Below are positions 3,335 to 23,489 of a DNA stretch of 64,000 nucleotides, in pieces. This DNA is from Desulfobotulus pelophilus (GTDB taxonomy: Bacteria > Desulfobacterota > Desulfobacteria > Desulfobacterales > ASO4-4): positions 1-64,000 of the forward strand of contig NZ_JAPFPW010000013.1 in the NCBI RefSeq assembly GCF_026155325.1, in the 5' to 3' direction. The notes below the pieces were generated by a model, which was not told the DNA's origin, did no database searches, and saw only the letters and a list, made by a program, of their open reading frames with translations. Position 1 is the stretch's first letter. Each line of letters begins with the position of its first letter. The position numbers and the translations under genes were made by a program.

Positions 3335-4588
3335 ATGACGGATAACGGCGATACCGGGGACAAGCTTTACTGCTCGTTCTGCGGCAAAAGCCAGAAGGAT
3401 GTCCGGAAGCTCATCGCAGGTCCTGCTGTCTATATCTGTGACGAATGCATCCAGCTGTGCAGTGAGATCATAGAAGAAGAAGGGGAAAAATCTCCGGAAG
3501 CTCCTGAGCATCTGCTGACGCCCAAGGAAGTCAAGGATCGGCTGGATGATTATGTGATCGAGCAGGATGCGGCCAAGAAAACGCTGGCGGTTGCGGTAAG
3601 AAATCATTACCGCAGGCTGGAATCCGCAAGCGGACAGAGCGCCCATGATGAGGTGGAAATTCAGAAAAGTAACATCCTTCTCATTGGTCCCACGGGTAGC
3701 GGCAAGACTCTTCTGGCACAGACACTGGCCCGCTTTCTGGATGTACCCTTCACCATAGCGGATGCTACCACCCTTACGGAAGCGGGTTATGTTGGAGAGG
3801 ATGTGGAAAATATCATCCTCTCTTTGCTGCAGAATGCTGAGTATGACGTGGAGCGTGCTCAGCGTGGCATTGTTTATATTGATGAGATTGACAAGATTGC
3901 ATCCCGTGGAGACAACCCTTCCATTACCCGTGATGTGTCCGGGGAAGGTGTGCAGCAGGCCCTTTTAAAGATTATTGAGGGAACCACAGCCAGTGTTCCT
4001 CCCAAGGGAGGCCGCAAGCACCCGCAGCAGGATTTTGTGAAGGTGGATACCTCCAACATTCTTTTTATCTGTGGGGGAACGTTCACAGGGCTGGATAAGA
4101 TTGTTCAGCGGCGTATAGGTCAGAAATCCATGGGGTTTGGAGCCAAGATTACCAAACCGGGAGACAAGTCTGCCTCTGAGTTGCTGCACTTGGCAGAAGT
4201 GGAAGATCTGGTGAAGTTTGGCCTGATTCCGGAATTTCTGGGGCGACTTCCCGTGATTGCCATCCTTGAGGAGCTGAAGGAAGATGCTCTTGTTAAGATT
4301 CTGCAGGAACCCAAGAATGCACTGGTCAAGCAGTTTCAGAAGCTGTTCTCTTTTGAGGGCGTGAGCCTGCGTTTTACGGATGGAGCCCTGGTAGCCATTG
4401 CCAAAGAGGCTGTCCGCAGAAAGTCGGGAGCAAGGGGGCTCAGGGCCATTCTTGAAAATATCATGCTGGACATCATGTACGAGATTCCATCCCTGGAAAA
4501 TGTGAAGGAATGTGTAATCAGTGAAGAAGTGGTTCTGAACAAGGAGGAGCCCATTCTTTTATATGCACAGTCCAAACAGCAGGCATAG
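3335..4588 (+). CDS. clpX: ATP-dependent Clp protease ATPase subunit ClpX
   Basis: AAA+ unfoldase that selects substrates and threads them into ClpP. The 417-residue protein has the N-terminal zinc-binding domain (CSFCGKSQ with CDECIQLC, about residues 13-41), Walker A GPTGSGKT, Walker [10 protein letters not shown], and the C-terminal small domain with sensor 2 in [11 protein letters not shown]. Its ATG abuts the clpP stop with no intergenic base; the ribosome site lies inside the end of clpP. A weak hairpin follows the stop, before lon. Confidence 0.97.
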
Positions 4589-4613
4589 GGCAGAAACAGG
4601 AGCAAGGGTTTTG

Positions 4614-4652
4614 GGCCGCAGTCTTTCCCGCTGCGGTCTGAAGCCTTTTTTT
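4614..4652 (+). terminator. Weak terminator-like hairpin between clpX and lon
   Basis: An 8-bp stem with one G-U pair (GGCCGCAG at 4614-4621 with CTGCGGTC at 4631-4638), a 9-nt loop, and a run of seven T at 4646-4652. The T-run begins seven bases after the stem, so it is an imperfect terminator. It could attenuate read-through into lon. Confidence 0.35.
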
Positions 4653-4735
4653 GTGCCCTGTGTGTCCATAATCTTTTTCCCGGGATATGAGCATGTTTCA
4701 TTTTTCCGGGTGTTTTTAATCCGAGGATGACAGAT

Positions 4736-7081: not shown

Positions 7082-7097
7082 AAAGATGTTTTTTTGC

Positions 7098-7126
7098 TTG
7101 ACGGGGAAATGTCTTGCTGGTAGATA
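7098..7126 (+). promoter_or_regulatory. Promoter of the tRNA-Val/tRNA-Asp unit
   Basis: A -35 TTGACG at 7098-7103, exactly 17 bases, then a -10 TAGATA at 7121-7126, placed 36 bases before the first tRNA. Good match to a sigma-70 promoter. Confidence 0.55.
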
Positions 7127-7161
7127 GATCTCGCTTTTGTGATGGAAAGATTGTCACAAAG

Positions 7162-7237
7162 GGGCGAATAGCTCAGCTGGGAGAGCAACGGCCTTACAAG
7201 CCGTAGGTCACAGGTTCGATCCCTGTTTCGCCCACCA
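7162..7237 (+). tRNA. tRNA-Val (anticodon TAC)
   Basis: A 76-base cloverleaf: acceptor GGGCGAA pairs with TTCGCCC, D stem GCTC/GAGC, anticodon stem ACGGC/GCCGT with loop CTTACAA (anticodon TAC, reading GUA), T arm ACAGG-TTCGATC-CCTGT, and encoded CCA at 7235-7237. Seven bases separate it from tRNA-Asp, so both are probably cut from one transcript. Confidence 0.97.
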
Positions 7238-9121: not shown

Positions 9122-9575
9122 GCTTTGCAAGCAGGGGTATACGATGCATCCCATCAGTGGATGGCTTTGACAGGGGCAGCTTTTAATCCTTATGCGTTTG
9201 TCTGGGAATGCTGCCTGGTGTTGGTGGGTAGCCAGAAGCTGTGCGGTATGGTGTATATGGGGTTCATGGACGGGGGGAATCGATTGGATTATTTTTTAAA
9301 TCAAAATGTTATTTCTAGATGCTTTTTAATGATCGTGATCATTAAAAAAATGTGATTGCAAAACAAACATGATTATGCCATGTCATGTCAGGCTAAGTAA
9401 CAAGAGATTTTGTAGTTTGTTCCAGGTTCATGTCTGGCTGGCGAGTTTGAAGTTGCAAGTGGTTTGCGTGTTATTTAGGGGCTATAGATTTTTATTGGAT
9501 TGTGTTTGGGGTTGTTGCTGGTCTGAGAGAGAGCGGGTGGTGATATTTATTTAAAAAATTAAGATGGAGTTGCCC
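9122..9575. other. Regulatory region upstream of the cai-fix locus
   Basis: About 450 bases with no credible gene; the short open frames here lack ribosome sites and family features. It is AT-rich toward caiT and holds the perfect palindrome at 9323-9348, listed separately. The length suggests a multi-site control region, as is known for cai promoters in enterobacteria. Confidence 0.45.
9323..9348. promoter_or_regulatory. Perfect 12-bp palindrome, Crp/Fnr-type operator candidate
   Basis: TTTTTAATGATC (9323-9334) and GATCATTAAAAA (9337-9348) form a perfect inverted repeat around GT. The core reads TGAT-CGTG-ATCA, the spacing of Fnr-class boxes (TTGAT-N4-ATCAA). It lies about 230 bases before caiT. 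Too little loop and no GC stem for a terminator. A TetR operator is the alternative. Confidence 0.5.
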
Positions 9576-11090
9576 ATGGATGCAAATGAAAGCAAAAAAA
9601 TACAAATTGATCCCAAGGTTTTTTTCCCATCCCTGATCATTGTTGTTCTTCTCTGCTACCTTACGGTGAGAGATCTTGATGCGTCCAACAGGGTTATCAA
9701 TGCCGTTTTTCATTATGTAACCCACTCCTGGGGATGGGCTTTCGAATGGTACATGGTAGCCATGCTCATTGGCTGGGTCTGGTTGGTTTTCGGTCCTTTG
9801 GCGAGCAAAAAGCTGGGCGATGAGAAGCCAGAATTCAGTACTTTGAGCTGGATTTTTATGATGTTTGCATCCTGCACATCCGCTGCGGTCATCTTCTGGG
9901 GTTGCATAGAGGCATATTATTATGTGGCAACTCCTCCCTTCGGTTTTGAGCCTTTTTCTGTTGATGCCAAAAACTACTCCCTTGCTTACAGTCTTTTCCA
10001 CTGGGGACCCTTGCCATGGGCAACCTACAGCCTCCTGTCCGTTGCCTTTGGTTATTTCATGTTTGTTAAAAAGATTAATGTCATAAGGCCCAGTGGCACC
10101 CTTGAAGCCGTTGTAGGAGAAAAGCATTGCAGGGGATTGTTCGGAGTAGCTGTGGATAATCTCTACATTGTTGCCCTGATTCTCGCCATGGGTACCAGTC
10201 TGGGGCTTGCAACACCCCTTGTAACGGAATGTATTCAATATCTTTTCGGCATACAAAGAACCTTTGCAGTGGATGCGGCGATCATTTCATGCTGGATAGT
10301 ATTCAATGCGGTCTGTGTGGCATTCGGCCTTCAGAAAGGGATCAAGATTGCTAGTGATCTTAGGAGCTATCTCAGTATTATTCTACTTGCATGGGTTCTG
10401 ATTATTGGGGCAACAACATTTACCGTGAACTATTTTACGGACTCTGTGGGAGTACTGCTGAGTAGTTTCGGGAGCATGCTGTTTTATACCGATGCCATTG
10501 GCGAGAGCAGTTTTCCCCAAAACTGGACTGTTTTTTACTGGGCGTGGTGGATTGTTTATGGAATCCAGATGTGTATTTTTCTTGCCCGCATTTCCAGAGG
10601 AAGAACAGTCCGTGAGCTTTGCCTTGGTATGGTAGGTGGGCTTACCGCATCAACCTGGATTCTCTGGACCATCCTTGGAAGCAATACAATGAATATCATG
10701 AATCAGGGTATTCTGGATCTGCCTGCTTTGATCGAATCCAATGGTGTGCCCTACGCAATTGTCCAGACATGGGCTGCCCTGCCCCTGAGTACCATCACAG
10801 TTTGGGGCTTTTTTCTTCTTTGTTTCATAGCCACAGTGACCCTTGTCAATGCCTGTTCTTATACCCTTGCCATGTCCACATGCAAAGAAGCCAGCGGTTA
10901 TGAAGAGCCTCCTGTATGGGTTCGTGTTGGCTGGTCTGTGCTTGTGGGTATTATCGGCATAACTCTTTTGGCTCTGGGTGGTCTGCGTCCTATTCAGACC
11001 GCCATTATTGCGGGCGGTTGTCCTCTGTATTTTGTTAACATTATGATTATTATAGCTTTTTTTAAGGATGCAAAACGCAGCGGCTGGTAG
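9576..11090 (+). CDS. caiT: L-carnitine/gamma-butyrobetaine antiporter CaiT
   Basis: Inner-membrane BCCT-family transporter that exchanges external carnitine or crotonobetaine for internal gamma-butyrobetaine. The ATG at 9576 follows GGAG and gives 504 residues, the length I recall for Escherichia coli CaiT; the frame opens slightly upstream at 9564. The sequence follows CaiT from end to end, with [20 protein letters not shown], the Trp-rich segment [13 protein letters not shown] and the C-terminal [10 protein letters not shown]. Twelve membrane helices are expected. It opens the cai-fix locus, and caiA follows after 35 bases. Confidence 0.96.
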
Positions 11091-11125: not shown

Positions 11126-12262
11126 ATGGATTTCAAGCTGAGTGATGAGCAGGAATTGTTTGTGGCCGGTGTCCGGGAGCTTATGGAAAGGGATGCCTGG
11201 GAAGGCTATTTTGCCGAGTGTGATGAAAAACACCAGTATCCTGAAAGATGGGTGAAAGAGCTGGCTGATCTGGGCGTGGACACCATGATGCTGCCAGAAG
11301 AGCATGGTGGTATGGATGCCAGTATGGTTACCCTCACCGCCATATGGGAAGAGCTGGGAAGATTGGGAGGGCCTACCTATGTGCTGTATCAGCTTCCCGG
11401 TTTCAATACGATTCTGCGGGAAGGAACACAGGATCAGATTGATAAAATATTCGCCTTCCGGGGAACCGGCAAGCAAATGTGGAATTCAGCCATTACCGAG
11501 CCCGGTGCCGGTTCCGATGTGGGCAGCCTGAAAACGACTTATACCCGTAAAGATGGCAAGGTTTATCTCAACGGGCACAAGTGCTTTATCACCAGTAGTC
11601 AGTATGCTCCCTATCTTGTTGTGATGGCAAGGGATGGTTTGGCAGAAGCACCCGTCTTTTCAGAGTGGTTCGTGGATATGAGTAAGCCCGGTATCAAGCT
11701 GAACCCCCTTGAAAAATTGGGGTTACGCATGGACAGTTGCTGTGAAGTTATTTTTGATAACGTGGAACTTGAGGAGACAGATCTCTTCGGTAAAGAGGGC
11801 AATGGTTTTAACCGTGTAAAAGAAGAGTTTGATGCGGAACGTTTTCTTGTGGCCTGCACAAACTACGGAGTGGCTTACTGTGCTTTTGAAGATGCGGCAA
11901 AGTATGCGAACCAGAGGGTTCAGTTTGGGGAAGCCATCGGAAGAACGCAGCTGATCCAGGAAAAGTTTGCCCTTATGGCCATCAAGTTAAACAGTATGAA
12001 GAACATGCTGTATGAGACTGCCTGGAAAATTGATCAGGGAACTGCCACTTCTGGCGATGCAGCTATGTGCAAGTATTTCTGTGCCAATGCGTCTTTTGAA
12101 GTTGTGGATTCAGCCATGCAGGTTCTGGGAGGCATTGGCGTGGCCGGAGGGCACCGCGTATCCCGTTTTTGGCGTGATCTGCGTATAGACAGGCTTTCCG
12201 GTGGATCGGATGAAATGCAGATTCTTACCTTGGGCCGCTCCGTTCTTAAAGCGTATCGGTAG
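11126..12262 (+). CDS. caiA: Crotonobetainyl-CoA reductase CaiA
   Basis: FAD enzyme of the acyl-CoA dehydrogenase family that reduces crotonobetainyl-CoA to gamma-butyrobetainyl-CoA. The 378 residues start after a strong GAGGAGG site. Recognisable segments include the flavin-binding stretch [12 protein letters not shown], the substrate/FAD segment [18 protein letters not shown], and the C-terminal [19 protein letters not shown] with [13 protein letters not shown]. Closely parallels enterobacterial CaiA throughout. Electrons are expected from FixABCX, encoded downstream. Confidence 0.96.
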
Positions 12263-12368
12263 GGAAGTGGTGCCGTGAACATTCGCTGCTCAGAGCCATT
12301 CCCTGGTTTTTTTTGAATGTTGAAAGGAGTGTGGTTTCGGAGCAGCCACAGAAATATGAGGTATGGGT

Positions 12369-13586
12369 ATGACGCAAGCACTGAATACACCTGAATTTGG
12401 TCCCCTTCAAGGGGTGAGAGTTGTTTTTTCTGCCATTGAGATTGCCGGTCCATTTGCTGCACAGATGCTTGCAGAGTGGGGTGCGGAGGTAATCTGGATA
12501 GAAAATGTTGCCTATGGTGACACTATCCGGGTTCAGAAGAATTACCCTCACTTGTCCCGTCGTAATCTTCATGCTCTGTCTTTGAATATCTTTTCAGATG
12601 AGGGAAAAGAGATTTTTTTAAAGCTCATGGAGACAACGGACATTTTTATTGAGTCCAGTAAGGGCCCGGCCTTTGCCCGCAGGGGGATCACTGATGAGTT
12701 GTTGTGGAAGCATAACAAAGCTCTCGTCATTGCACATCTTTCCGGGTTCGGTCAGCATGGAGTTCCAGAGTACACCAATCTTGCAGCATACAATACCATA
12801 GCTCAGGCTTTCAGTGGCTATCTTATTCAGAACGGTGACAAGGATCAGCCCATGCCCTCATTTCCCTATACAGCCGACTATATTTCCGGATTTACGGTTG
12901 TCAGTTCTGCGCTGGCGGCTCTCCTGAATGCCCGTAAAACCGGGGTTGGAGAAAGTATCGATGTGGCCATGTATGAAGCCATGCTGAGGGTTGGGCAGTA
13001 CTACATGATGGATTATTTTAATGGTGGAGAGCTCTGTCCGCGTATGACAAAGGGTAAAGATCCAATATGGGCCGGCTGCGGACTTTATACCTGTAAAGAT
13101 GGATATATTGTTACAGAAATAGTTGGTGAACCTCAGGTGGAGAGTATTTTTGAGATTCTGGGTCTTTCCGAACACCTAGGTAGTGAATCTCTTCCTGAAG
13201 GAACTCAGCTGATAGCCAGAGAGAATTCTGTGGCCGGGCTCTTTGAAGAAAAGCTGGATGCTTTTTTTCTTGAGAAAACGGCCGCCGAAGCTCTTGAAAT
13301 ACTGGCGGGCATAAAAGTGGCTGGCGCCAAGGTTCTCACTGTTCCCGAGCTGGAATATAATCCTCAGTACATCGCGCGCCAGTCCCTGACGGAGTGGGAT
13401 GCTATGGATGGCAGCAAGGTCAGAGGGCCGAACGTTATGCCCCGATTTACGAATGCGCCATGCAGAATATGGCGTGGCCTGCCTTCTAAAGGTATGGATA
13501 CGGCCTTGATTTTAGGGGAGATTGGTTATTCCGAAGAAGAGATAACGGCTTTGCTTGATAAGAACATCATAGCGATGCCGGGGTAG
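12369..13586 (+). CDS. caiB: L-carnitine CoA-transferase CaiB
   Basis: Class III (FRC family) CoA-transferase that moves CoA from gamma-butyrobetainyl-CoA to carnitine or crotonobetaine, so only a primer amount of CoA ester is needed. I chose ATG 12369 rather than 12363 because GAGG at 12358-12361 is well spaced only from the former; the product is then 405 residues, the usual length. The catalytic Asp lies in [10 protein letters not shown] near residue 170. Further family segments are [13 protein letters not shown] and [20 protein letters not shown]. It follows caiA by about 100 bases. Confidence 0.95.
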
Positions 13587-13671: not shown

Positions 13672-15282
13672 GTGGATATAGTAGGAGAAAAATCGCTGGG
13701 ATGTTTTTGGGAAAAGCTTGCCCTCCTTTATGGCAGCAGAACAGCTCTGGTATTTGAAGACAGTTCAGGCCGCACCTGCGAGTATAGTTATGCCGATCTG
13801 AATGCGGAGATATGCAGGGCTGCCAATCTGTTTCATGGCTTAGGCATTGAAAGTGGTGACAGGGTTCTGCTGCAGCTTCATAACAGTCCAGAATTTCTTA
13901 TAGCCTGGTTTGGTCTTTCTTTTCTTGGAGCGGTCAGTGTTCCTTTGAACGTTCATTACCAGGAAAGTGAGTGTGCCTACATCCTGGAGAAGTGCCGGCC
14001 AAAAGCTATCGTGGTGGAGGAGTCTTTTCTGCATCTGCATGGGAGAAAATGCAGTGATAACGAAAGAAGTGTTGAAATCGTGCTGATTGCCCGGCTGGAT
14101 GGAGACACAGAACATGCCGGTTGCCTGAATTTTAATACTCTTTTGAAAAATCAGAGCTCTGGTCTGGCAGAGAAGTTTTTAGTTTCCCCTGATGCCCCTG
14201 CCGAAATTCTGTTTACTTCCGGCACTACATCAAAGCCCAAGGGCGTTGTCATTACTCACCATAACCTCCTGTTTGCCGGTCGTTACACAGCATGGCAATG
14301 TTGCATGAGGTCCGAAGACAGATACCTCACCATGATGCCGGCATGGCATATTGATTTTCAGTGTACGGCAGCTATGCCGACCTTCGCATCGGGTGCAACA
14401 TTTATCATGCTGGAAAGCTACAGTGCCCGAAAATTCTGGCAGCAGGTGTGTATTCACAGGGCAACCATAACGGAATGTATCCCTCTTATGGTGAGGACCT
14501 TGATGCTGCAACCTCAGAGATCATGGGAAAAAGATCACTGTCTGCGGGAGGTTTTCTTTTATCTGACTCTGACGGAACAGGAAAAAGAAGCTTTTGTTGA
14601 GCGTTTTCATGTCAGGTTTCTGACTTCCTATGGCATGACGGAATCCATTGTCGGTGTCATTGGAGACTGCCCGGGAGATGAGCGGCGGTGGCCCTCCATG
14701 GGCAGGCCTGGTTTTGGGTATGAAGTAAAGGTTATTGGCTGTGACGGTATGGAAGTGTCGCCTGGTTGTGTCGGTGAAATATGCATCAAAGGTGTTCCGG
14801 GCAGAACTCTTTTTAAGGAGTACTATATGGACCACGATGCTACGGCAAAGGCCCTGGATGCAGAGGGTTGGCTGCGCACGGGTGACAGGGGATATATGGA
14901 TGGAGATGGGTACTTTTATTTTGTGGATCGTCAGATAAATGTGATTAAAAGGTCTGGGGAGAATATTTCCAGTACGGAGATAGAGTGCTTTCTGCAGGAT
15001 CATCCTAAGGTGATGGAGGCGGCTGTGATAGGCGTTCCGGACACCATTTGTGATGAAAGTATCAAGGCGTTTGTGATTCCGAAGGAGGGGGAACAGGTGA
15101 GTGAAAAGGAGCTTCTGGAATACTGCTCCATGCATATTGCCAAGTTCAAGCTTCCTGGTTCTGTAGAAATTCGAGAAAGTTTTCCAAGAACCTGTACGGG
15201 CAAGGTTCGCAAGAATCTGCTCCGGGAAGAAACCCTTGGGTTGTCAGGAAAAAGTAGTTCTGTGGAGTGTGGTCTGGCGTAA
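13672..15282 (+). CDS. caiC: Carnitine/crotonobetaine--CoA ligase CaiC
   Basis: Adenylate-forming enzyme that makes the first CoA ester from carnitine, crotonobetaine or butyrobetaine with ATP. It starts with GTG at 13672, nine bases after GGGAGG, giving 536 residues. The AMP-binding signature is LFTSGTTSKPKGVVIT; the A5-type motif is SYGMTESIVG; the hinge motif is GWLRTGDRGYM; and the C-terminal catalytic Lys lies in RTCTGKVRKNL. The N-terminus MDIVGEKSL resembles CaiC MDIIG. Insertions account for about 20 residues more than the enterobacterial enzyme. Confidence 0.93.
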   Translation: MDIVGEKSLGCFWEKLALLYGSRTALVFEDSSGRTCEYSYADLNAEICRAANLFHGLGIESGDRVLLQLHNSPEFLIAWFGLSFLGAVSVPLNVHYQESECAYILEKCRPKAIVVEESFLHLHGRKCSDNERSVEIVLIARLDGDTEHAGCLNFNTLLKNQSSGLAEKFLVSPDAPAEILFTSGTTSKPKGVVITHHNLLFAGRYTAWQCCMRSEDRYLTMMPAWHIDFQCTAAMPTFASGATFIMLESYSARKFWQQVCIHRATITECIPLMVRTLMLQPQRSWEKDHCLREVFFYLTLTEQEKEAFVERFHVRFLTSYGMTESIVGVIGDCPGDERRWPSMGRPGFGYEVKVIGCDGMEVSPGCVGEICIKGVPGRTLFKEYYMDHDATAKALDAEGWLRTGDRGYMDGDGYFYFVDRQINVIKRSGENISSTEIECFLQDHPKVMEAAVIGVPDTICDESIKAFVIPKEGEQVSEKELLEYCSMHIAKFKLPGSVEIRESFPRTCTGKVRKNLLREETLGLSGKSSSVECGLA

Positions 15283-15401
15283 GACGCATAAGCCCGTAAT
15301 TTTTTTATGAGGGCAGGGAGATTTTTTGGGCAATAAAAATGATCATGGTTATAAAATAGTCTTTGATTTTTTAATGGTAGCGTGAAAATAAGGAGGTAAT
15401 C

Positions 15402-16253
15402 ATGGCACTGAAGCTGGATATGCAGGGAAAAACCTATGGACCCTTTGTACGCAAGTATGATTTTCGGGAGCTGATTCTGTTTGCCCTTGGATGTGGTGCC
15501 GGCGCAGACGGTAAAACGGACCTTGCGTATGTTTATGAAAAGGATCTCAAGGTGCTTCCAATGTTTGCAGCTATGCCAATCGTGGACAGTGAGGTTACAA
15601 AAACCATTGATTACGGCTTTGATTGGGGTGGATCCCTTCACTGGGGTTTTGATCTGCAGTTTCATCAACCGATTACCAGCCTGTCCGGGACCCTGAGTAC
15701 CCATGTGTTGTTGAAGGGACTGTACGATCGCGGAGAGGGACGTGGCTGTCTGGCTCAGCACATTGGAGAAACGTTTGATGAGAATGGAATAAAGCTGTTT
15801 ACCAATGAAAGCTGGGACTGCGCTCTGTACGATGGCGGTTTTGGAGGCCCTAAAGCCCCTCAGGATCTGGTGGAAATACCTGAAAGGAGTCCTGACTATG
15901 AAGTTGTTGAATGTGTTCCTCGTAATCAGGCACTGATATATCGCCTTTCCGGGGACTATCATCCTCAGCACATAGACTGGGAATATGCCCGGGAGAATGG
16001 ACATGAAATGCCCATCCTTCACGCTGTCAGTACAGCTGGCTTCGCTTGCCGTCACATTATTAAAACCTTCATCCCTGGTGAGCCGGAGCGGCTTACACGC
16101 TTTAAGACCCGTATTACCAAGCCCCTATATCCCGGTGTTACCATTAAAACTCAGATGTGGAAGTGGGATGATAACTCTATTCACTTCAGGGTTGTTGATG
16201 CAGACCATCCAGACAAAATATACCTGAATTTTGCCCTGGCAGAGTGGAAATAG
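15402..16253 (+). CDS. MaoC-like hydratase-2 protein in the CaiD position
   Basis: A 283-residue double hot-dog protein of the MFE-2/hydratase-2 type. The N-terminal half carries the family segment FALGCGAG...LAYVYEKDL.VLPMF (residues 28-55). The C-terminal half carries YRLSGDYHPQHID at 180-192, the hydratase-2 motif, followed by PILHAVSTAGF. In the family, Asp, Asn and His act in a D-x-N-P-x-H pattern; here Asp185 and His190 are kept but Asn is His187. It starts after a perfect AAGGAGGTAATC site and lies between caiC and fixA, where E. coli has CaiD, a crotonase-fold enzyme. I infer it hydrates crotonobetainyl-CoA or dehydrates carnitinyl-CoA. No CaiD or CaiE is present in the window. Confidence 0.8.
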   Translation: MALKLDMQGKTYGPFVRKYDFRELILFALGCGAGADGKTDLAYVYEKDLKVLPMFAAMPIVDSEVTKTIDYGFDWGGSLHWGFDLQFHQPITSLSGTLSTHVLLKGLYDRGEGRGCLAQHIGETFDENGIKLFTNESWDCALYDGGFGGPKAPQDLVEIPERSPDYEVVECVPRNQALIYRLSGDYHPQHIDWEYARENGHEMPILHAVSTAGFACRHIIKTFIPGEPERLTRFKTRITKPLYPGVTIKTQMWKWDDNSIHFRVVDADHPDKIYLNFALAEWK

Positions 16254-16337: not shown

Positions 16338-17111
16338 ATGAAAATTGTTGTGGCTTGTAAGCTGGTTCCTGAGGAGCAGGATATTCGCATTGAGGCAGAC
16401 GGCTCTCTGGAAATGGGCAAGGCATCTTATAAGATAAGTCCCTTTGATTTGAATGCCATGGAAGCGGCCGTTCAGCTCAGAAATCATGCTAAAGAAGGAA
16501 CGGTTACTGCGCTGAGTATCGGCGGCAGAGAGTTGGAAAATACCAAAGCAAGAAAAGATATTCTGTCTAGAGGGGCTGATGATCTGATCCTGGTAATGGA
16601 TGATGACTTCAGCGGAATTCTTCCCCATAAAACAGCAGAAATTATGGCCGCATCAGTCCGTGGTATGGGATTTGACCTGTTGATCTGTGGTGATGGTTCG
16701 GGAGATCTGTATGCCCAGCAGGTCGCTATGCGGACGGGTGGGCTTCTTGGAGTCGCGGCTGTGAGTGGAGTCAGCAGGATTCTCGGTATGGAAGCAGGAA
16801 CGTTGAGGGTAGAGAGAGTTCTGGAAAGTGTGGTGGAAGTTCTTGAAATTCCCCTTCCTGCGGTTATTTCCGTTTCAACGGACATCAATGTGCCGGCCAT
16901 TCCTGGTATGAAAGCCATTCTTAGTGCGGCGAAAAAACCCGTTACGGTGATGGCCGCCGAAGATCTTGGTCCCTTGTCGTCTTCCGTTCTTGTTGACATG
17001 GTGGAAGTAAAAGCTCCCAGGCAGAAAGAGCGGAAAAAATTGATAGTTGAAGGCGATAGCGAAGAAAAAATTTCTGAATTTATTAATCATTTGCGTAAAG
17101 TTCTGAACTGA
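16338..17111 (+). CDS. fixA: Electron transfer flavoprotein beta subunit FixA
   Basis: Small subunit of the FixAB electron transfer flavoprotein, which passes electrons to CaiA in the carnitine pathway. The 257 residues show the ETF-beta opening MKIVVACKLVP, the segment KISPFDLNAMEAAVQLR, and the domain binding the non-FAD cofactor with LLICGDGSGDLYAQQVA. The ribosome site AGGAAGG lies just upstream. FixB starts 12 bases after the stop. It belongs to the Fix branch rather than the fatty-acid ETF branch by length and by its cai neighbours. Confidence 0.93.
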   Translation: MKIVVACKLVPEEQDIRIEADGSLEMGKASYKISPFDLNAMEAAVQLRNHAKEGTVTALSIGGRELENTKARKDILSRGADDLILVMDDDFSGILPHKTAEIMAASVRGMGFDLLICGDGSGDLYAQQVAMRTGGLLGVAAVSGVSRILGMEAGTLRVERVLESVVEVLEIPLPAVISVSTDINVPAIPGMKAILSAAKKPVTVMAAEDLGPLSSSVLVDMVEVKAPRQKERKKLIVEGDSEEKISEFINHLRKVLN

Positions 17112-17123
17112 TACGGGGGGGAT

Positions 17124-18074
17124 ATGAGCAAGGTGTCGAATGTATGGGTGTTCAGTGATTCCGATTCTCGTTTGCCGGAGGTGATAGCCGGGGGCTTGCA
17201 GCTGGGAGAAAAGGTATCCGTTTTTGTGGTTGGATCTGAAGAGGCTGTAACTTTGGCATATGCCCTGGGTGCAGAAAAGGTTTATTTTATAGAAAAAGAA
17301 GAATCCAGACTGATCGAAAGCTATGCGGATACCATGGCTGCTGTTATAGCCGGGGAGGGTGGAAGGTCTCTGATCATGATGCCCGGGACAAGGTGCTGCA
17401 AGGGTCTGGCTTCTCTTTTGGGTGTCAGGCTTGGGGCCGGGGTGATGACCGATGTGTCGGAGTTGTCATCGGAAGATGGTAAGGTCCATGGCAAGCGTAT
17501 GGTGTTGGGTGGTCTGGCCATTGGCGCGGAAAGGGTGCAGTCAGCTGTCTCCATAGCCGTTATCGCCGGTGGCACGTATAGTCCCGCAGAGCCTGATACA
17601 TCCCGAACGGGAGAGGCTGTGAAGCTTGATTATATTGAACCAGCCGTATCCGTTCGTTGCACGGAGCGTCGTCCGAGGGAAGGAAGCCGGGTGGATCTTG
17701 CCCGGGCCAGGCGTGTGGTAGGGATAGGCAGGGGGATTGCCAGGCAGGAAGATATTGCCATGGTGGAGGATTTTTGTTCCGTCATTGATGCTGAGCTTGG
17801 ATGTTCCCGCCCGATTGCAGAGGGTGAGAAGTGGATGGAGCATGAACGTTATATCGGTATTTCCGGCGTCATGCCCAAACCGGATCTTTATATGGCTCTG
17901 GGAATTTCCGGCCAGATTCAGCATATGGTTGGAGCCAATGGTTCCCAGAGTATTGTTGCTGTGAACAAGGATAAGAATGCCCCTATCTTTCAGTATGCTG
18001 ATTATGGAATCGTTGGTGACCTCTATAAGGTTGTGCCTGCCCTTGTTAAGGCTTTCAAAAGTAATCAGGACTGA
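17124..18074 (+). CDS. fixB: Electron transfer flavoprotein alpha subunit FixB
   Basis: Large ETF subunit that holds FAD and forms the heterodimer with FixA. The 316 residues contain the N-terminal ETF domain and the C-terminal FAD domain with GRGIARQEDIAMVEDFC, GISGQIQHMVGANGSQ and the end segment FQYADYGIVGDLYKVVPAL. In E. coli fixB is followed directly by fixC; here a 345-base structured region, a small gene and a symporter gene lie between them. Confidence 0.94.
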   Translation: MSKVSNVWVFSDSDSRLPEVIAGGLQLGEKVSVFVVGSEEAVTLAYALGAEKVYFIEKEESRLIESYADTMAAVIAGEGGRSLIMMPGTRCCKGLASLLGVRLGAGVMTDVSELSSEDGKVHGKRMVLGGLAIGAERVQSAVSIAVIAGGTYSPAEPDTSRTGEAVKLDYIEPAVSVRCTERRPREGSRVDLARARRVVGIGRGIARQEDIAMVEDFCSVIDAELGCSRPIAEGEKWMEHERYIGISGVMPKPDLYMALGISGQIQHMVGANGSQSIVAVNKDKNAPIFQYADYGIVGDLYKVVPALVKAFKSNQD

Positions 18075-18420
18075 TATTTCTTGATATGGCTATATGTGAA
18101 GACAGTGCCCAGCCTTTTCAAGAATCTCATTGGAATGGCAGCACGGAAAGGCTGGTCCTTTATGCTGGCAGGTCCGTGCTGTTATTTTCCGGAATAAGAA
18201 GAAAGATCACTTTTTTTGAGATGGCTGCCGTTGCATTTCTTTTGTAACGGCTGCGATGGTTTCTGGACAGGGGTGGTCGGGCGGCTTTCGGACCTTGGGC
18301 TGGTATCTGGAGGGCAGGTACTTTTTTGAAGCAGGGGGGCGCTGACTGGGAGAAAGCCATAGACATAACGTGAGCGCAGACTGGTCCCGAAAGGGGCGGT
18401 GCTTGCAGAGCGGAGGAGCT
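18075..18420 (+). other. Structured RNA region between fixB and the small membrane gene
   Basis: No gene, but much pairing potential. CCAGCCTTT (18109-18117) pairs perfectly with AAAGGCTGG (18147-18155), and CAGCACGG (18139-18146) pairs perfectly with CCGTGCTG (18174-18181). The two stems interlock and abut, so they form either an H-type pseudoknot or two exclusive folds. A 9-bp hairpin follows (GCCGTTGCA 18227-18235, TGTAACGGC 18243-18251), and a GAAA-loop hairpin lies near 18390. It may be a leader controlling the symporter or a processing signal. Confidence 0.4.
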
Positions 18421-18540
18421 ATGGGAGAGATCGTTTTTTCTATTTTCATTGGTGGCTGTTTAGCTGCTGCTGGTTTGGTTTTGGTCGGGTGGTTGCACCG
18501 GGAGCAGAGCCGGAACAGGCCCGGCAGAAAAAGAACCTGA
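18421..18540 (+). CDS. Small single-pass membrane protein (39 residues)
   Basis: An ATG at 18421 directly follows CGGAGGAGCT, a very strong ribosome site. The frame reads MGEIVFSIFIGGCLAAAG, continues with a hydrophobic LVLVGW, then a basic tail ending in GRKRT and a TGA at 18538-18540. This is one membrane helix with a positive inside end. It stops 14 bases before the GTG of the symporter, whose own ribosome site lies between. I do not recognise the family. By position I infer a partner of the symporter, as other solute symporters have small accessory proteins. Confidence 0.65.
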   Translation: MGEIVFSIFIGGCLAAAGLVLVGWLHREQSRNRPGRKRT

Positions 18541-18554
18541 GTGGAGGTGATATT

Positions 18555-20162
18555 GTGTCAATATACACCGCTGGAGTTCTTTTTAGCATTGTCTTGTATC
18601 TCCTGATTGGCATGTATGCCGGAAGAAAGGTCAGGAGTGTTGAGGACTATTATGTTTGCGGACGAAATGCTCCCACCCTTCTGATCGCTGGTACCCTTTT
18701 TGCCTCCATGCTGAGTACGAACGGGTTTCTGGGCGATACGGCCTACTGTTATACCGGCAATATAACAACGATGATTCTGATCAATGCCCTGTGTGCCTGC
18801 GGTTATGTTTTGGGTCCCCTTTTCTTCGGGCGTTATATCCGCAGAGCGAGGGTAGACACCATGCCTTCTTATTTCGGTCAGCGATTCAACAGTAAGCGCA
18901 TCCGACGTTTCTCCGGTTTGATAACCGTTATTTCTCTTACCGCCTATCTCTTGAGTGTCATACAGGGGACGGGCCTGCTGATGGAAACCCTTACCGGGTT
19001 CAGCCGCTTTTCCTGCCTTGCCATATCATGGATATGCTTTACGGCCTTTACTTTTTATTCGGGATCAAGAGGGGTGGTTATCACTGACACTCTTATGTGC
19101 ATATTTTTTCTTGCGGCCACTGTTCTTGCCGGTTTTTTTGTATTGAAAGCTGCCGGAGGGGTGGGCAGTCTGGTAGTCAATCTTGCCAGCAGTGCGGATA
19201 CACCAGATGGGTTGCTGGATTATCATGGAAATACGGGTGGTGGATCAAAACTGGATATGATGACGTATGCCATTAGCATGGGGTTTGTCTGGATGATTGC
19301 CGTGGGGGTCAGTCCCTGGCAGGCCGGTCGGAATCTGATGGCCAGAAATGAGCATGTTGTTTTCAGATCCGGTGTCATAGCAGCCCTCCTGACCACTTTC
19401 TTTCTGTTGTACCTTTATCTGATGGCAGTGAGTGTGCTTTTGCTGAATCCCGGTCTGGATCCCCCTGAGGGCGTCATTCTGTGGGCTGCTTTTGAATTGG
19501 TTCCAAAGCTGGTGGGAGTGGTTCTGCTTACGGGTATCATGACGGCGGGCCTTTCCTCGGCGTCAACATTTTTATCTGTAGTCAGTTTCAGTCTGTCCAG
19601 TGATGTTTTTGATATGAAGTTTAAATCGGGAGAAGCCCAGCTGCTTTTTACCCGTTTTACGGTTTTGTTTGTCGGCTTGATTACCCTTGCCCTGGCCAGT
19701 TTCAATGTTTCTGATATTCGGGTAACCACCTGGTTTGCCAGTACCATTATTGCTGCGTCCTGGGGGTATGTAGCGTTTGCCAGTGTGTGGAGCCGTAGGC
19801 TGACGGAGCGTGGGGCCTACTATTCCATGCTGGGAGGTTTCACAGGTTATCTGGTGCTGGAGATTGCCAGTGATTTTTTGGGGCTGACTTCTGGTCCTGT
19901 TGTGAATCCGTTTTTTATTGGCCTTGGCATAAGCATACTGCTGGGATTTTTGGGTTCACGCAATCAGAAAAGGAGTAGTGAAGAAGTCCGTTTTCTGAAA
20001 AAAATGCATCAAATCCCAGAATCTGAGACCCGGGATGAGGATTACAGAATTGACAGGATGTATGGGTGGGGGATGGTTGTGGGTGGCTTCCTGATTACCT
20101 TCTTTCTGCTGACGTATTGGGTTTTTCCTTATCATGGTTTTTTGAGTTCCGGAGCTGCTTAA
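18555..20162 (+). CDS. Sodium:solute symporter (SSS family)
   Basis: Inner-membrane sodium-coupled uptake carrier. I chose the GTG at 18555, seven bases after GGAGG, giving MSIYTAGVLFSIVLYLL and 535 residues; the longer open frame starting at 18399 runs over the small gene in another frame. Family features are VRSVEDYYVCGRNAPT after the first helix, the unwound-helix segment LFASMLSTNGFLGDT, and GIMTAGLSSASTFLSVVSF, the sodium-site helix. About 13 helices. Placement between fixB and fixC suggests it imports a betaine for the cai pathway, but the substrate cannot be read from sequence. Confidence 0.87.
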   Translation: MSIYTAGVLFSIVLYLLIGMYAGRKVRSVEDYYVCGRNAPTLLIAGTLFASMLSTNGFLGDTAYCYTGNITTMILINALCACGYVLGPLFFGRYIRRARVDTMPSYFGQRFNSKRIRRFSGLITVISLTAYLLSVIQGTGLLMETLTGFSRFSCLAISWICFTAFTFYSGSRGVVITDTLMCIFFLAATVLAGFFVLKAAGGVGSLVVNLASSADTPDGLLDYHGNTGGGSKLDMMTYAISMGFVWMIAVGVSPWQAGRNLMARNEHVVFRSGVIAALLTTFFLLYLYLMAVSVLLLNPGLDPPEGVILWAAFELVPKLVGVVLLTGIMTAGLSSASTFLSVVSFSLSSDVFDMKFKSGEAQLLFTRFTVLFVGLITLALASFNVSDIRVTTWFASTIIAASWGYVAFASVWSRRLTERGAYYSMLGGFTGYLVLEIASDFLGLTSGPVVNPFFIGLGISILLGFLGSRNQKRSSEEVRFLKKMHQIPESETRDEDYRIDRMYGWGMVVGGFLITFFLLTYWVFPYHGFLSSGAA

Positions 20163-20253: not shown

Positions 20254-21540
20254 ATGTCTGATGATAAATTTGATGTTATTGTGGTTGGTGCAGGCCTTGC
20301 CGGGTGTACGGCTGCTTTTCTGATGGCCCAGGCTGGTATGGAAACCCTTGTAATTGAAAGGGGTAACTTCGCAGGTGCAAAAAACATGACGGGTGGAAGG
20401 CTGTATGCCCACAGTCTTGAGGCCATATTTCCAGGATTTGCCGATGATGCACCCGTAGAGCGTTGTATTGTCCATGAAAAGATTTCCTTTATGGATGAAA
20501 CCAGCAGCGTAACCCTGGACTATGCCTCAACTGCCAGTGGAAGTCCTGCTGAAAGATCCTATTCTGTGCTGAGATCCAGACTGGATCCATGGCTGGCTGA
20601 AAAAGCAGAGTCTGCAGGGGCCGTCTTTGTTACGGGTGTACGGGTTGACGATCTTCTGGTGCGCTATGGTAAGGTTTGTGGCGTCATAGCAGGGGGGGAA
20701 GAGATGGAGGCGGATATGGTTATCCTTGCCGATGGTGTGAACTCTCTTCTGGGTGAAAAGCTGGGAATGGTGCATACGGTTACGCCTCATCATTGCGCAG
20801 TAGGAGTAAAAGAGGTTATCGAGCTGGGCAGGCAGAAGGTGAATGATCGCTTCGGGTGCTGCGACAAGGATGGTGCTGCGTGGCTTTTTGCCGGTATGCC
20901 ATCCGCAGGGTATATGGGCGGGGGATTTATTTACACCAATGAAGACAGTATCTCCCTTGGGGTGGTTTTTGGACTGCATAATACGGGCCGTTCCGCTAAG
21001 AGTGTGCCTCAGATGCTGGAGGATTTTAAGAATCATCCAACGGTAAGGCCCCTTGTGGAAGGAGGAAAGCTTGTTGAGTACTCCGCCCATGTAGTGCCTG
21101 AGGGGGGAATGGAGATGGCGCCTAAGCTTGTGGGGGAGGGTGTTTTAATTGTTGGTGATGCGGCAGGGTTTTGCCTTAATGCAGGATATACGGTTCGTGG
21201 TATGGATCTGGCTGTGGCTTCCGGGAAAGCAGCTGCTGTGGCTGCTATCAACGCCTGGCAAAGAGCTGATTTCGGTGCTTCTTCCTTGTCCGTTTACGAA
21301 AGGGAGCTTGATGGCAGTTTTATCATGAAAGATCTTAGACTTTACAGGAAGCTTCCTTCTTTTCTGGATAACCGCCGTATGTATAATGATTATCCTGCCA
21401 TGGCGACGGGAATGATGAAAGATCTCTTTACCGTAAATGGTCCTTCCCGTCCTCTGCGAAAAAAAATGATACCTCATTTGAAAAAAGCCGGATTCATGAA
21501 TCTGATCAAAGACGGTTGGAAAGGAGTAAGGTCAATATGA
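20254..21540 (+). CDS. fixC: Electron transfer flavoprotein-quinone oxidoreductase FixC
   Basis: FAD protein that works with FixX to exchange electrons between FixAB and the quinone pool. The 428 residues equal the E. coli length. The dinucleotide-binding motif is VVGAGLAGCTAAFLMAQAG at the N-terminus, followed by the family segment NMTGGRLYAHSLE and, near the middle, LIVGDAAGFCLNAGYTVRGM. The ribosome site is AAGGGGG. Its stop overlaps the fixX start in ATGA, so the two are coupled. Confidence 0.95.
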   Translation: MSDDKFDVIVVGAGLAGCTAAFLMAQAGMETLVIERGNFAGAKNMTGGRLYAHSLEAIFPGFADDAPVERCIVHEKISFMDETSSVTLDYASTASGSPAERSYSVLRSRLDPWLAEKAESAGAVFVTGVRVDDLLVRYGKVCGVIAGGEEMEADMVILADGVNSLLGEKLGMVHTVTPHHCAVGVKEVIELGRQKVNDRFGCCDKDGAAWLFAGMPSAGYMGGGFIYTNEDSISLGVVFGLHNTGRSAKSVPQMLEDFKNHPTVRPLVEGGKLVEYSAHVVPEGGMEMAPKLVGEGVLIVGDAAGFCLNAGYTVRGMDLAVASGKAAAVAAINAWQRADFGASSLSVYERELDGSFIMKDLRLYRKLPSFLDNRRMYNDYPAMATGMMKDLFTVNGPSRPLRKKMIPHLKKAGFMNLIKDGWKGVRSI

Positions 21541-21824
21541 ATACAAGGGTGAATGTGGATGTGAAGCTCGGCGTTAATAAGTTCTTTGTGGATGAAGGGA
21601 ATCCTCACATTGAGATTGCGGAGAACCCTTCTTTGCAAGAATATGCAAAGCTGGAGGCGGCATGCCCAGCCGGGCTTTACAGACGGGATGAAAAGGGGGC
21701 TGTTCGTTTTGATTATGCCGGTTGTCTTGAGTGCGGAACCTGTCGCATTCTTTGTGGAAAAACCATCGTTAAAAGATGGGAGTACCCCAATGGAACCTTT
21801 GGAGTTGAGTTCCGCTATGGTTGA
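21537..21824 (+). CDS. fixX: Ferredoxin-like protein FixX
   Basis: Small iron-sulfur partner of FixC. The ATG at 21537 overlaps the fixC TGA by four bases; the 95-residue length equals that of E. coli FixX. It has the FixX core VDVKLGVNKFFVDE, ACPAGLY and DYAGCLECGTCRI, which supply the cysteines of one 4Fe-4S cluster, and ends in GTFGVEFRYG. An extra Cys follows in RILC. It closes the cai-fix series. Confidence 0.95.
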   Translation: MNTRVNVDVKLGVNKFFVDEGNPHIEIAENPSLQEYAKLEAACPAGLYRRDEKGAVRFDYAGCLECGTCRILCGKTIVKRWEYPNGTFGVEFRYG

Positions 21825-22128: not shown

Positions 22129-22833
22129 ATGCCATCATCCGAAGAGAGGGCCAGAATCAAGCAGTACCGCATCATGAAATATTTTGTTGGGTCCGCCGCC
22201 GAGATAATAAAAAAAGAGGGAGTGGGTGCCGTTACCATTCGCAGGGCTTCGGACCTTGCCGGTTATGCCAGCGCTACAATGTATAATTACTTCGATAATC
22301 TCCATCACCTGGTGTTTCTTGCCACCATGAATTATCTGGAGGAATACAATGCTGCTCTGCCCCACTATATAGCCCACTGTCGTAATTCTGTTGAAAGATA
22401 CATGGCCGTATCAAAATGTTTTACGGAGTACTCCTATGCCGAGCCTGAGATTTACGAGCTGCTGTTTTTTACCCACAGCGACCAGAAGCTTGAGCTGTAT
22501 ACCCAACAGTATTATGAGCTTTTTCCGGAAAAAATAGTGGAGGAATGGCCGGTACCATTGAATAAAATATATAAACATAACAGCATTTATGCACGGAGTT
22601 TCATGATGCTGGAAGATTGCATTCAAGATGGCTTCATCACCAGACAGAATGCTGAGGATTTTAATGATGTGAGTCTCAGATTCTATAAAAGTATCCTGCA
22701 GGATGTCAGGTCGGGTGTAATGGAAAAAGAGCCTGCTTTGATACTGACAATGAAGTACTATCGGCAGGTTCTTGGTTGCTATATGGAACCAGAGCATCGG
22801 TATTTGCTTAGTGAGTATTCTTTGAAAATATAA
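22129..22833 (+). CDS. TetR/AcrR family transcriptional regulator
   Basis: The 234-residue protein has an N-terminal helix-turn-helix of TetR type at about residues 20-65: AAEIIKKEGVGAVTIRRASDL, split here, then AGYASATMYNYFDNLHHLVF. The C-terminal ligand domain is helical and aromatic-rich, without a recognised ligand motif. It starts after AAAGGAAAA. It lies about 300 bases after fixX in the same direction, where it could sense a betaine or CoA ester and control the cai-fix locus; no CaiF is present. Ligand and operator are unknown. Confidence 0.85.
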   Translation: MPSSEERARIKQYRIMKYFVGSAAEIIKKEGVGAVTIRRASDLAGYASATMYNYFDNLHHLVFLATMNYLEEYNAALPHYIAHCRNSVERYMAVSKCFTEYSYAEPEIYELLFFTHSDQKLELYTQQYYELFPEKIVEEWPVPLNKIYKHNSIYARSFMMLEDCIQDGFITRQNAEDFNDVSLRFYKSILQDVRSGVMEKEPALILTMKYYRQVLGCYMEPEHRYLLSEYSLKI

Positions 22834-22874
22834 AAAAGGCCAGGCTGGCTGACGTGGTCTTATGGAGAAAGTTT

Positions 22875-23489
22875 ATGGATATACGTTTGTTTACCCTGGG
22901 GCCTTTTCAGACCAATGGGTACCTTCTGTCGGAAGGAGCGAAGGCTGTTTTTGTAGACCCGGGTGATATTTGCCATGCTTTGCAGGGTTTGATTCACAGA
23001 GAAGGTTTTCGTCTCACACACGTGCTCATCACGCATATGCACATAGATCATTTTTACGGAGCGGCAGCTCTCTCTGCCGTTACCGGGGCTGAAATAATGG
23101 CTGGCTCCGGTGATGCGTTCATGGTGAATGATGAAATGGCAGAAGGACCCCGGTGGGGCTATCCTTTGCTTGGAGAAGATCTTGATTTTACAGTAATTGA
23201 AACAAACGATCTTGAAATATTAGGTAGAAAATGTTGCGTGCTGTCCACGCCAGGTCATACGCCGGGAAGTCTGACATACTATTTTCCGGAAGAAAAGGTT
23301 GCATTTACTGGAGATCTTATTTTTAAGGAAAGTGTAGGCCGAACAGATTTCAGGGGGGGAGATTCCAGTGTTTTGGCTCACTCCATCCGACGGTCAATCC
23401 TTACCCTGCCGGGTGATACGGTTTTATATCCGGGACATGGTCCTTCCACTACCGTTGCACATGAAAAAAAATACAATCCCTGGTGCTGA
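22875..23489 (+). CDS. Metallo-beta-lactamase-fold hydrolase (glyoxalase II-like)
   Basis: Predicted cytoplasmic zinc or iron hydrolase. I chose ATG 22875, which follows GGAG by seven bases, giving 204 residues. The metal ligands are THMHIDH, the His in TPGHTPGS, Asp in FTGDLIF and His in YPGHGP, the set expected for the small glyoxalase-II-like group (YcbL/GloB-like). It is too short for classical glyoxalase II, which has a C-terminal substrate domain. It follows the TetR gene by about 40 bases, so it may share its transcript. Confidence 0.87.
   Translation: MDIRLFTLGPFQTNGYLLSEGAKAVFVDPGDICHALQGLIHREGFRLTHVLITHMHIDHFYGAAALSAVTGAEIMAGSGDAFMVNDEMAEGPRWGYPLLGEDLDFTVIETNDLEILGRKCCVLSTPGHTPGSLTYYFPEEKVAFTGDLIFKESVGRTDFRGGDSSVLAHSIRRSILTLPGDTVLYPGHGPSTTVAHEKKYNPWC

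Follow-up and report, generated by a model that had tools for sequence, protein, structure and literature searches.

The MaoC-type protein encoded in the carnitine (cai) operon of Desulfobotulus pelophilus, hereafter cai-MaoC, is probably the dehydratase/hydratase of anaerobic carnitine reduction and a non-orthologous stand-in for CaiD. In E. coli, CaiD dehydrates carnitinyl-CoA, CaiA reduces crotonobetainyl-CoA, and CaiB together with CaiC supply CoA (PMC2131755). In the operon described here, CaiT would bring L-carnitine in and gamma-butyrobetaine out, and CoA would be attached by CaiC and CaiB. Cai-MaoC would then reversibly convert carnitinyl-CoA to crotonobetainyl-CoA and water, so that the CaiD step would rely on a double hot-dog fold with the residue pair Asp185/His190 instead of the crotonase fold. 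CaiA, with the FixABCX flavoproteins, would reduce crotonobetainyl-CoA to gamma-butyrobetainyl-CoA, from which CaiB would recycle the CoA. In support of this reading, none of the 110 surveyed caiABC loci lacks both CaiD and MaoC, and where CaiD is missing, MaoC is the only dehydration candidate that the operon encodes.

The cai-fix locus and its hot-dog protein

The window, that is, the whole stretch of 64,000 nucleotides of D. pelophilus DNA that was analysed, carries the following features around the gene of interest. Identities refer to E. coli K-12 proteins, and NCBIfam equivalog cut-offs were used for CaiT, CaiA, CaiB and CaiC.

9564-11090, + strand: caiT, L-carnitine/gamma-butyrobetaine antiporter (BCCT), 508 residues (NF002887, 878 bits, cut-off 541; 72% identical to CaiT)
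11126-12262, + strand: caiA, crotonobetainyl-CoA reductase, 378 residues (NF002885, 729 bits, cut-off 540; 80% to CaiA)
12363-13586, + strand: caiB, carnitine CoA-transferase, 407 residues (NF002914, 645 bits, cut-off 413; 71% to CaiB)
13672-15282, + strand: caiC, carnitine/crotonobetaine-CoA ligase, 536 residues (NF005947, 800 bits, cut-off 651; 52% to CaiC)
15390-15397, + strand: strong ribosome-binding site AAGGAGGT preceding the MaoC gene, read from the sequence directly 5′ of the ATG
15402-16253, + strand: cai-MaoC, double hot-dog, hydratase-2-like protein, 283 residues (Pfam, solved-structure matches, model and fold search, orthologues, conserved position)
16338-17111, + strand: fixA, electron-transfer flavoprotein subunit (NF002888, above cut-off; 55% to FixA)
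17124-18074, + strand: fixB, electron-transfer flavoprotein subunit (ETF domains; NF002889, 381 bits, below the cut-off of 549; 52% to FixB)
18399-20162, + strand: sodium:solute symporter (SSS) family protein (PF00474)
20254-21540, + strand: fixC, flavin oxidoreductase (NF007450, above cut-off; NF007542, 604 bits, slightly below the cut-off of 610; 60% to FixC)
21537-21824, + strand: fixX, ferredoxin-like, 95 residues (63% to FixX; start picked so that the protein is as long as E. coli FixX; the list of open reading frames has 21516)
22129-22833, + strand: TetR-type regulator, a candidate for the operon (TetR_N E 3e-4, BetI model E 1e-6, both below cut-off)
22854-23489, + strand: metallo-beta-lactamase-fold hydrolase (PF00753)

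The close parallel of caiT, caiA, caiB and caiC with the enterobacterial genes, noted in the original prediction, is borne out, all four products passing their equivalog cut-offs. With FixABCX alongside, these equivalogs identify the locus as a cai carnitine-reduction operon. The gene run continues beyond the part initially described, through fixA, fixB, the SSS symporter, fixC and fixX up to the TetR-type regulator. Gaps between genes from caiT to fixX range from -4 to 119 bases, but reach 324 between fixB and the symporter; common strand and spacing suggest that this run forms a single transcript. Promoter- and terminator-like sites showed no clear excess over shuffled sequence in the operon region. 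The symporter between fixB and fixC is likely a second transporter of the module. It is also found at this place in two Endozoicomonas loci (L047 and L048; 56-57% matches).

Metallo-beta-lactamase-fold hydrolases lie near cai genes not only in the window but in 32 of 39 Trueperella-family cai loci and in the Curtobacterium plasmid locus described below (L046); these are distant relatives and the link is one of association only. By tblastn, the caiABC stretches from the Enterobacillus, Shewanella, Neobacillus and Endozoicomonas families contained none. The cai-linked hydrolases are perhaps CoA-thioester hydrolases.

Between caiC and fixAB, at the position of CaiD, the open reading frame 15402-16253 (+) encodes a 283-residue product bearing the motif YRLSGDYHPQHID, and the double hot-dog protein originally described with this motif is confirmed by two Pfam domains, both above their cut-offs of 27 bits: MFE-2_hydrat-2_N (PF22622; residues 18-137, E 2e-10, 40.8 bits) and MaoC_dehydratas (PF01575; residues 159-260, E 3e-15, 56.3 bits). 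No NCBIfam model matched at E 0.01, and the ECH family was absent among Pfam and NCBIfam matches at the same threshold. By sequence, human MFE-2 provides the top match among solved structures, through its hydratase 2 domain (1s9c, E 2e-35). An AlphaFold2 model (pLDDT 80, pTM 0.83; residues 41-48 are weakly modelled) predicts a double hot-dog fold along the whole length; it superposes on 1s9c with Z 32.4 over 269 residues at 2.1 Å rmsd and on 3khp with Z 31.1. Overall, 2-enoyl-CoA hydratase 2 and MaoC-like proteins come nearest in fold, with Z of 27-32.

CaiD and MaoC across carnitine operons

Neither CaiD nor CaiE is encoded in the window, as first noticed: tblastn of the 64 kb with E. coli CaiD, CaiE and CaiF gave no match at E 1e-3. 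A caiD gene elsewhere in the genome, which the original prediction had itself considered, did not appear either. In this assembly of 3.66 Mb (86 contigs, 97.7% complete), the CaiD model NF002936 gives eight matches, all on contigs other than that of the window, the best reaching 165.8 bits against a cut-off of 500. The two best crotonases share 38% and 35% identity with E. coli CaiD, and their top model is a short-chain enoyl-CoA hydratase, with a score below the cut-off of that model. One of these two looks like a beta-oxidation enzyme, since genes for a thiolase, a 3-hydroxybutyryl-CoA dehydrogenase and an acyl-CoA dehydrogenase lie in the same region. These short-chain crotonases might have a side activity on crotonobetainyl-CoA, a point that counts against cai-MaoC as the hydratase.

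The genome contains no second relative of cai-MaoC at E 1e-3, which fits its arrival together with the cai genes. CaiA above cut-off was present in one of 395 sampled genomes of the phylum, that of the window itself, and no second cai operon was found among these 395. The operon was thus likely acquired horizontally.

The co-occurrence of MaoC with absence of CaiD, which the original prediction suggested to check in Desulfobacterota, was therefore examined mainly outside the phylum of the window. In a caiA-anchored survey of 110 deduplicated genomes with CaiA above cut-off and a caiABC locus, in which caiA, caiC, caiD, maoC and caiE were scored by tblastn score, 46 loci hold CaiD only, 46 MaoC only, 18 both and none neither; the families were picked for known MaoC loci, and the ratio of CaiD to MaoC is therefore not a natural frequency. 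The informative part of the survey is the absence of operons with neither gene. CaiB was confirmed in all 110 loci, and no weaker CaiD or MaoC match lay below the thresholds. By family, the counts are as follows.

Enterobacillus family, 36 genomes: 35 CaiD only, 1 MaoC only
Shewanella atlantica family, 29 genomes: 18 both, 11 CaiD only
Trueperella pyogenes family, 39 genomes: 39 MaoC only, with MaoC after caiC in all 39
Neobacillus family, 3 genomes: 3 MaoC only
Endozoicomonas family, 2 genomes: 2 MaoC only
Phylum of the window, 1 genome (that of the window, counted in the 110): MaoC only

The single MaoC genome of the first family is that of Enterobacillus tribolii, which lacks CaiD, the other 35 genomes with CaiA above cut-off having CaiD only. 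Genomes were drawn at family level because broader draws were sparse (2 of 247 for the order of Enterobacillus, 1 of 296 for the class of Trueperella). Several cases were left out of the 110: genome G980, whose sole CaiA lies outside any caiBC locus; the second operon of Ferrimonas kyonanensis; additional CaiA copies that seven further Shewanella-family genomes carry without caiC; genome G1169, with CaiA below cut-off and a locus without MaoC and without CaiD above 80 bits; and eight genomes of the Enterobacillus-family draw in which every CaiA-family match was below cut-off.

Searches of 23 whole genomes that contain MaoC-cai loci revealed neither a CaiD over the model cut-off nor any match at E 1e-60 in 19 of them; the four exceptions are two Shewanella and two Ferrimonas. 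First-look candidates of the CaiD model number as few as one to five in some MaoC-only genomes. On a CaiA tree of 52 representatives, three state changes were counted for CaiD and four for MaoC; mutual exclusion of the two genes, tested with three independent pairs, is not significant (median p 0.5), a test that has no power at this size.

The position of MaoC is very regular. It follows caiC in all 46 MaoC-only loci (with a tandem paralogue between in one Endozoicomonas) and follows caiD in all 18 loci holding both, always on the same strand, hence in 64 of 64 surveyed loci with MaoC, which span Pseudomonadota, Bacillota, Actinomycetota and the phylum of the window. Between the aligned edges of caiC or caiD and MaoC lie no more than 322 bases in every group except Endozoicomonas, where the distance in L048 is 1087 bases, with the tandem paralogue between.

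A separate pattern scan of 84,980 species genomes detected orthologues of the window protein in at least 64 loci, at 60-84% identity, a lower bound since short exact peptide patterns find close relatives only. These loci belong chiefly to marine gammaproteobacteria, Bacillota and Actinomycetes. No relative turned up when viral contigs and phages were scanned. The nearest loci found, in both sequence and gene order, are the two of Endozoicomonas (84% identity, symporter between fixB and fixC included), which share with the window the layout caiTABC-maoC-fixAB-SSS-fixCX. Enterobacillus tribolii shows caiTABC-maoC with divergent fix genes, and Bacillaceae and Peptococcaceae caiAB-fixABCX-caiC-maoC. 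The usual form in Actinomycetes is caiABC-maoC followed by fixABCX, from which some Propionibacteriaceae deviate. In the Shewanella family, the order is caiTABC-caiD-maoC, with caiE next in 17 of 18.

Some further observations concern the cai loci themselves. Plasmid G07 of Curtobacterium sp. MCLR17_007 (L046, 11.1-14.9 kb) carries a cai-MaoC, 59% identical to that of the window, beside caiC and a caiB-like sequence that is split over two match segments; caiA and fix genes gave no matches within the fetched stretch. YaaU-like MFS transporters occur in 89 of the 110 cai stretches, in three phyla, and are absent from the window and from both Endozoicomonas loci; this distribution suggests that E. 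coli YaaU (L111:12790-14001) may belong to the carnitine system. A second, diverged caiA, 69-73% identical to the query and away from caiBC, is seen in eight Shewanella-family loci (L134, L138, L139, L142, L143, L145, L148 and L149), in the same stretch as a YaaU-like MFS gene and, for L134, L143, L145 and L148, as a metallo-beta-lactamase-fold hydrolase. The Actinomyces locus L084 contains tandem near-duplicates of caiA (3649-4761 and 6056-7189).

A related case has been reported in Propionibacterium freudenreichii. In the available part of this work, the caiABC-fixABCX cluster is described without caiD or caiT, and an unspecified 'enoyl-CoA hydratase' between caiABC and fixABCX, together with an MFS transporter, is suggested to fill these gaps (Scoary2, PMC11007987). 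In yogurt, strains with the full cluster depleted octanoyl- and decanoylcarnitine and increased carnitine, some other acylcarnitines and a compound putatively identified as gamma-butyrobetaine (PMC11007987). The cluster plan matches that of our Brooklawnia locus (L072), whose gene at the hydratase position is a cai-MaoC; by analogy of cluster position, the P. freudenreichii 'enoyl-CoA hydratase' would be a cai-MaoC as well. That report differs from the present analysis in that it deals with one species and, in the part available, gives no fold, family or wider distribution (PMC11007987). A gamma-butyrobetaine cluster database, as far as its available text goes, uses six Cai models, CaiD among them, and cites intact caiTABCDE clusters (PMC11857547). 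In open-licence PubMed Central, we found no report naming a MaoC or hot-dog protein for the carnitine dehydration step, nor any enzyme assay or enzymology of cai-MaoC, and no carnitine-specific MaoC is described in the PDB (by sequence search), Pfam or NCBIfam.

A distinct clade of hydratase-2-like proteins

To define what distinguishes these proteins, 86 non-redundant cai-MaoC sequences (window and loci) were aligned with 13 plasmid-borne generic hydratase-2 proteins as outgroups. The Asp and His of the hydratase-2 motif, which we take to be the catalytic residues of hydratase 2, are retained as Asp185 in 84 of 86 and His190 in 86 of 86, both being present in the window protein. Around them, the motif is shifted from DxNPLHxDP to DxHPQHxDW: His187 replaces the Asn of DxNPxH and Trp193 the Pro of HxDP, and further downstream His218 replaces an Ala, each in all 86 cai-MaoC against 13 of 13 outgroups with the original residue. 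Trp81, Asp84, Trp138 and Asp139 are invariant among the 86 and are not the consensus in the 13 outgroups. Since both the Asn and the Pro of the motif are replaced, cai-MaoC is filed as a distinct subfamily and not as a canonical hydratase 2; the change of the Asn to His in every sequence has also to be counted against the hydratase reading. In a tree of 32 of the 86 sequences with the 13 outgroups, cai-MaoC forms a clade of its own with 100/100 support; when drawn with midpoint rooting, its branch is long, at 2.59 changes per column.

Asp185 is missing only from two additional copies. One is the tandem copy of Endozoicomonas elysicola (D185I; L048, 9.1-10.0 kb) and the other that of the second operon of Ferrimonas kyonanensis (D185N; L136:2885-3736). 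Both also carry H207M, yet keep W81, W138, D139, H187, W193 and H218. The Ferrimonas copy adjoins a second caiB and a CaiT-like BCCT gene, followed by an ABC-type gene (recognized by eye) and a second caiA; caiC and caiD gave no match in this stretch.

Like E. coli CaiD (NF002936), cai-MaoC comes after caiC, has the same proposed reaction and the same partners CaiA, CaiB, CaiC, CaiT and FixABCX, whereas CaiD has the crotonase fold and no match to the window protein. With the hydratase 2 domain of peroxisomal MFE-2 (1s9c, 1pn4), it shares the double hot-dog fold, the length and the Asp and His, but the identity to 1s9c is about 30%, and the DxHPQHxDW motif and the conserved W81, D84, W138, D139 and H218 set it apart. 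Itaconyl-CoA hydratase PaIch and mesaconyl-CoA hydratase MeaC (8huc, 8khg, 8hgn) are likewise hot-dog hydratases working on small charged acyl-CoAs; they are, however, only 12-16% identical to the window protein, with lower structural scores (Z 19-21). We read cai-MaoC as a protein that keeps the fold and dyad of hydratase 2 but has been adjusted to a short cationic acyl group, in which W81, D84, W138, D139 and W193, together with H187 and H218, would adapt the tunnel to the short, positively charged acyl moiety.

Substrate, stereochemistry and alternative readings

The non-orthologous replacement of CaiD put forward in the original prediction is supported for the MaoC-only loci, 46 of the 110. 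It does not apply everywhere, and the 18 Shewanella-family operons with both CaiD and MaoC, which pure replacement does not predict, count against it. These dual operons could be in transition, keep one gene as a backup or provide a route for D-carnitine.

This raises the question of the enantiomer, a difficulty that the original prediction did not address. Since the substituent priorities at C3 are swapped, L-(R)-carnitine matches in space an (S)-3-hydroxyacyl group, the product of crotonases. Canonical hydratase 2 yields the opposite arrangement, which corresponds to D-carnitine and D-carnitinyl-CoA. Hence, either face selectivity is inverted in cai-MaoC or some copies serve D-carnitine, and the canonical face as such counts against L-carnitinyl-CoA. 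We nonetheless favour L-carnitine for the MaoC-only operons, with L-carnitinyl-CoA as the presumed substrate. For this speak the 46 operons that encode nothing else for dehydration and the Trueperella-family loci, where an alpha/beta hydrolase and an MFS transporter are present in 39 of 39, as in Brooklawnia. P. freudenreichii is described with this arrangement too, and its full-cluster strains show the changes in acylcarnitines, carnitine and putative gamma-butyrobetaine given above (PMC11007987). On the other side, the hydrolase is not specific to MaoC operons, being present in 13 of 36 Enterobacillus-family and 28 of 29 Shewanella-family loci and absent from the window. Tentatively, and with slightly more doubt than belief, we propose that cai-MaoC acts on the face opposite to that of canonical hydratase 2, for which the structural basis would lie in the replacement of Asn by His and of Pro by Trp and in the additional aromatic residues; these same features would also recognise the trimethylammonium group.

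The opposite possibility is that MaoC keeps the usual hydratase-2 face and is specific for D-carnitinyl-CoA, the dual operons then using or interconverting both enantiomers by a two-enzyme racemase. We consider this unlikely, even if D-carnitine does match the hydratase-2 product by established chemistry and the 18 of 110 operons with both genes count in its favour. E. coli and Proteus do racemise carnitine, but the review, in its available part, credits CaiD with this activity (PMC2131755). Against a D-specific enzyme stand the 46 MaoC-only operons, many of them in host-associated Actinomycetes. The natural substrate of such bacteria is L-carnitine, and natural acylcarnitines are L as well. 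Moreover, the alpha/beta hydrolase of all 39 Trueperella-family loci is of the kind tied to acylcarnitine loss in P. freudenreichii (PMC11007987).

Less probable again, to the point of being quite improbable, is that cai-MaoC has another hot-dog activity, such as that of a thioesterase freeing betaines from CoA, and that a housekeeping crotonase carries out the CaiD step. Hot-dog thioesterases do have the same fold (FatA-type chains, Z about 17), some genomes carry both CaiD and MaoC, and the D. pelophilus genome has the short-chain enoyl-CoA hydratase homologues mentioned above. However, the hydratase Asp/His dyad is retained almost throughout, the nearest folds are hydratase 2 and MaoC-like proteins, and some MaoC-only genomes offer very few first-look CaiD candidates. 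CoA recycling, besides, is already ensured by CaiB (PMC2131755). Finally, that MaoC simply travels with a mobile cai cassette, as an auxiliary or by chance, and has no dedicated carnitine step, would agree with the probable horizontal acquisition of the operon but is scarcely credible given its fixed position and strand in every surveyed MaoC locus, their spread over the phyla listed above and the strong constraint on its sequence.

As a probable dehydratase/hydratase standing in for CaiD, cai-MaoC draws its importance from its breadth, from the dual operons and from the stereochemical puzzle. On gene content, replacement of CaiD by a hot-dog enzyme appears to be widespread and to concern many of the bacteria converting carnitine to gamma-butyrobetaine. 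If this is true, surveys demanding caiD or a full caiTABCDE cluster would overlook a large group of gamma-butyrobetaine makers, including many mouth- and host-associated Actinomycetes; gamma-butyrobetaine is a precursor of trimethylamine. The family would then offer a clean case of two unrelated folds filling one pathway step, with some operons keeping both, and would allow one to test directly how hot-dog hydratases select one side of the double bond. Should the face indeed be inverted, two unrelated folds would have converged on one reaction and one stereochemistry.
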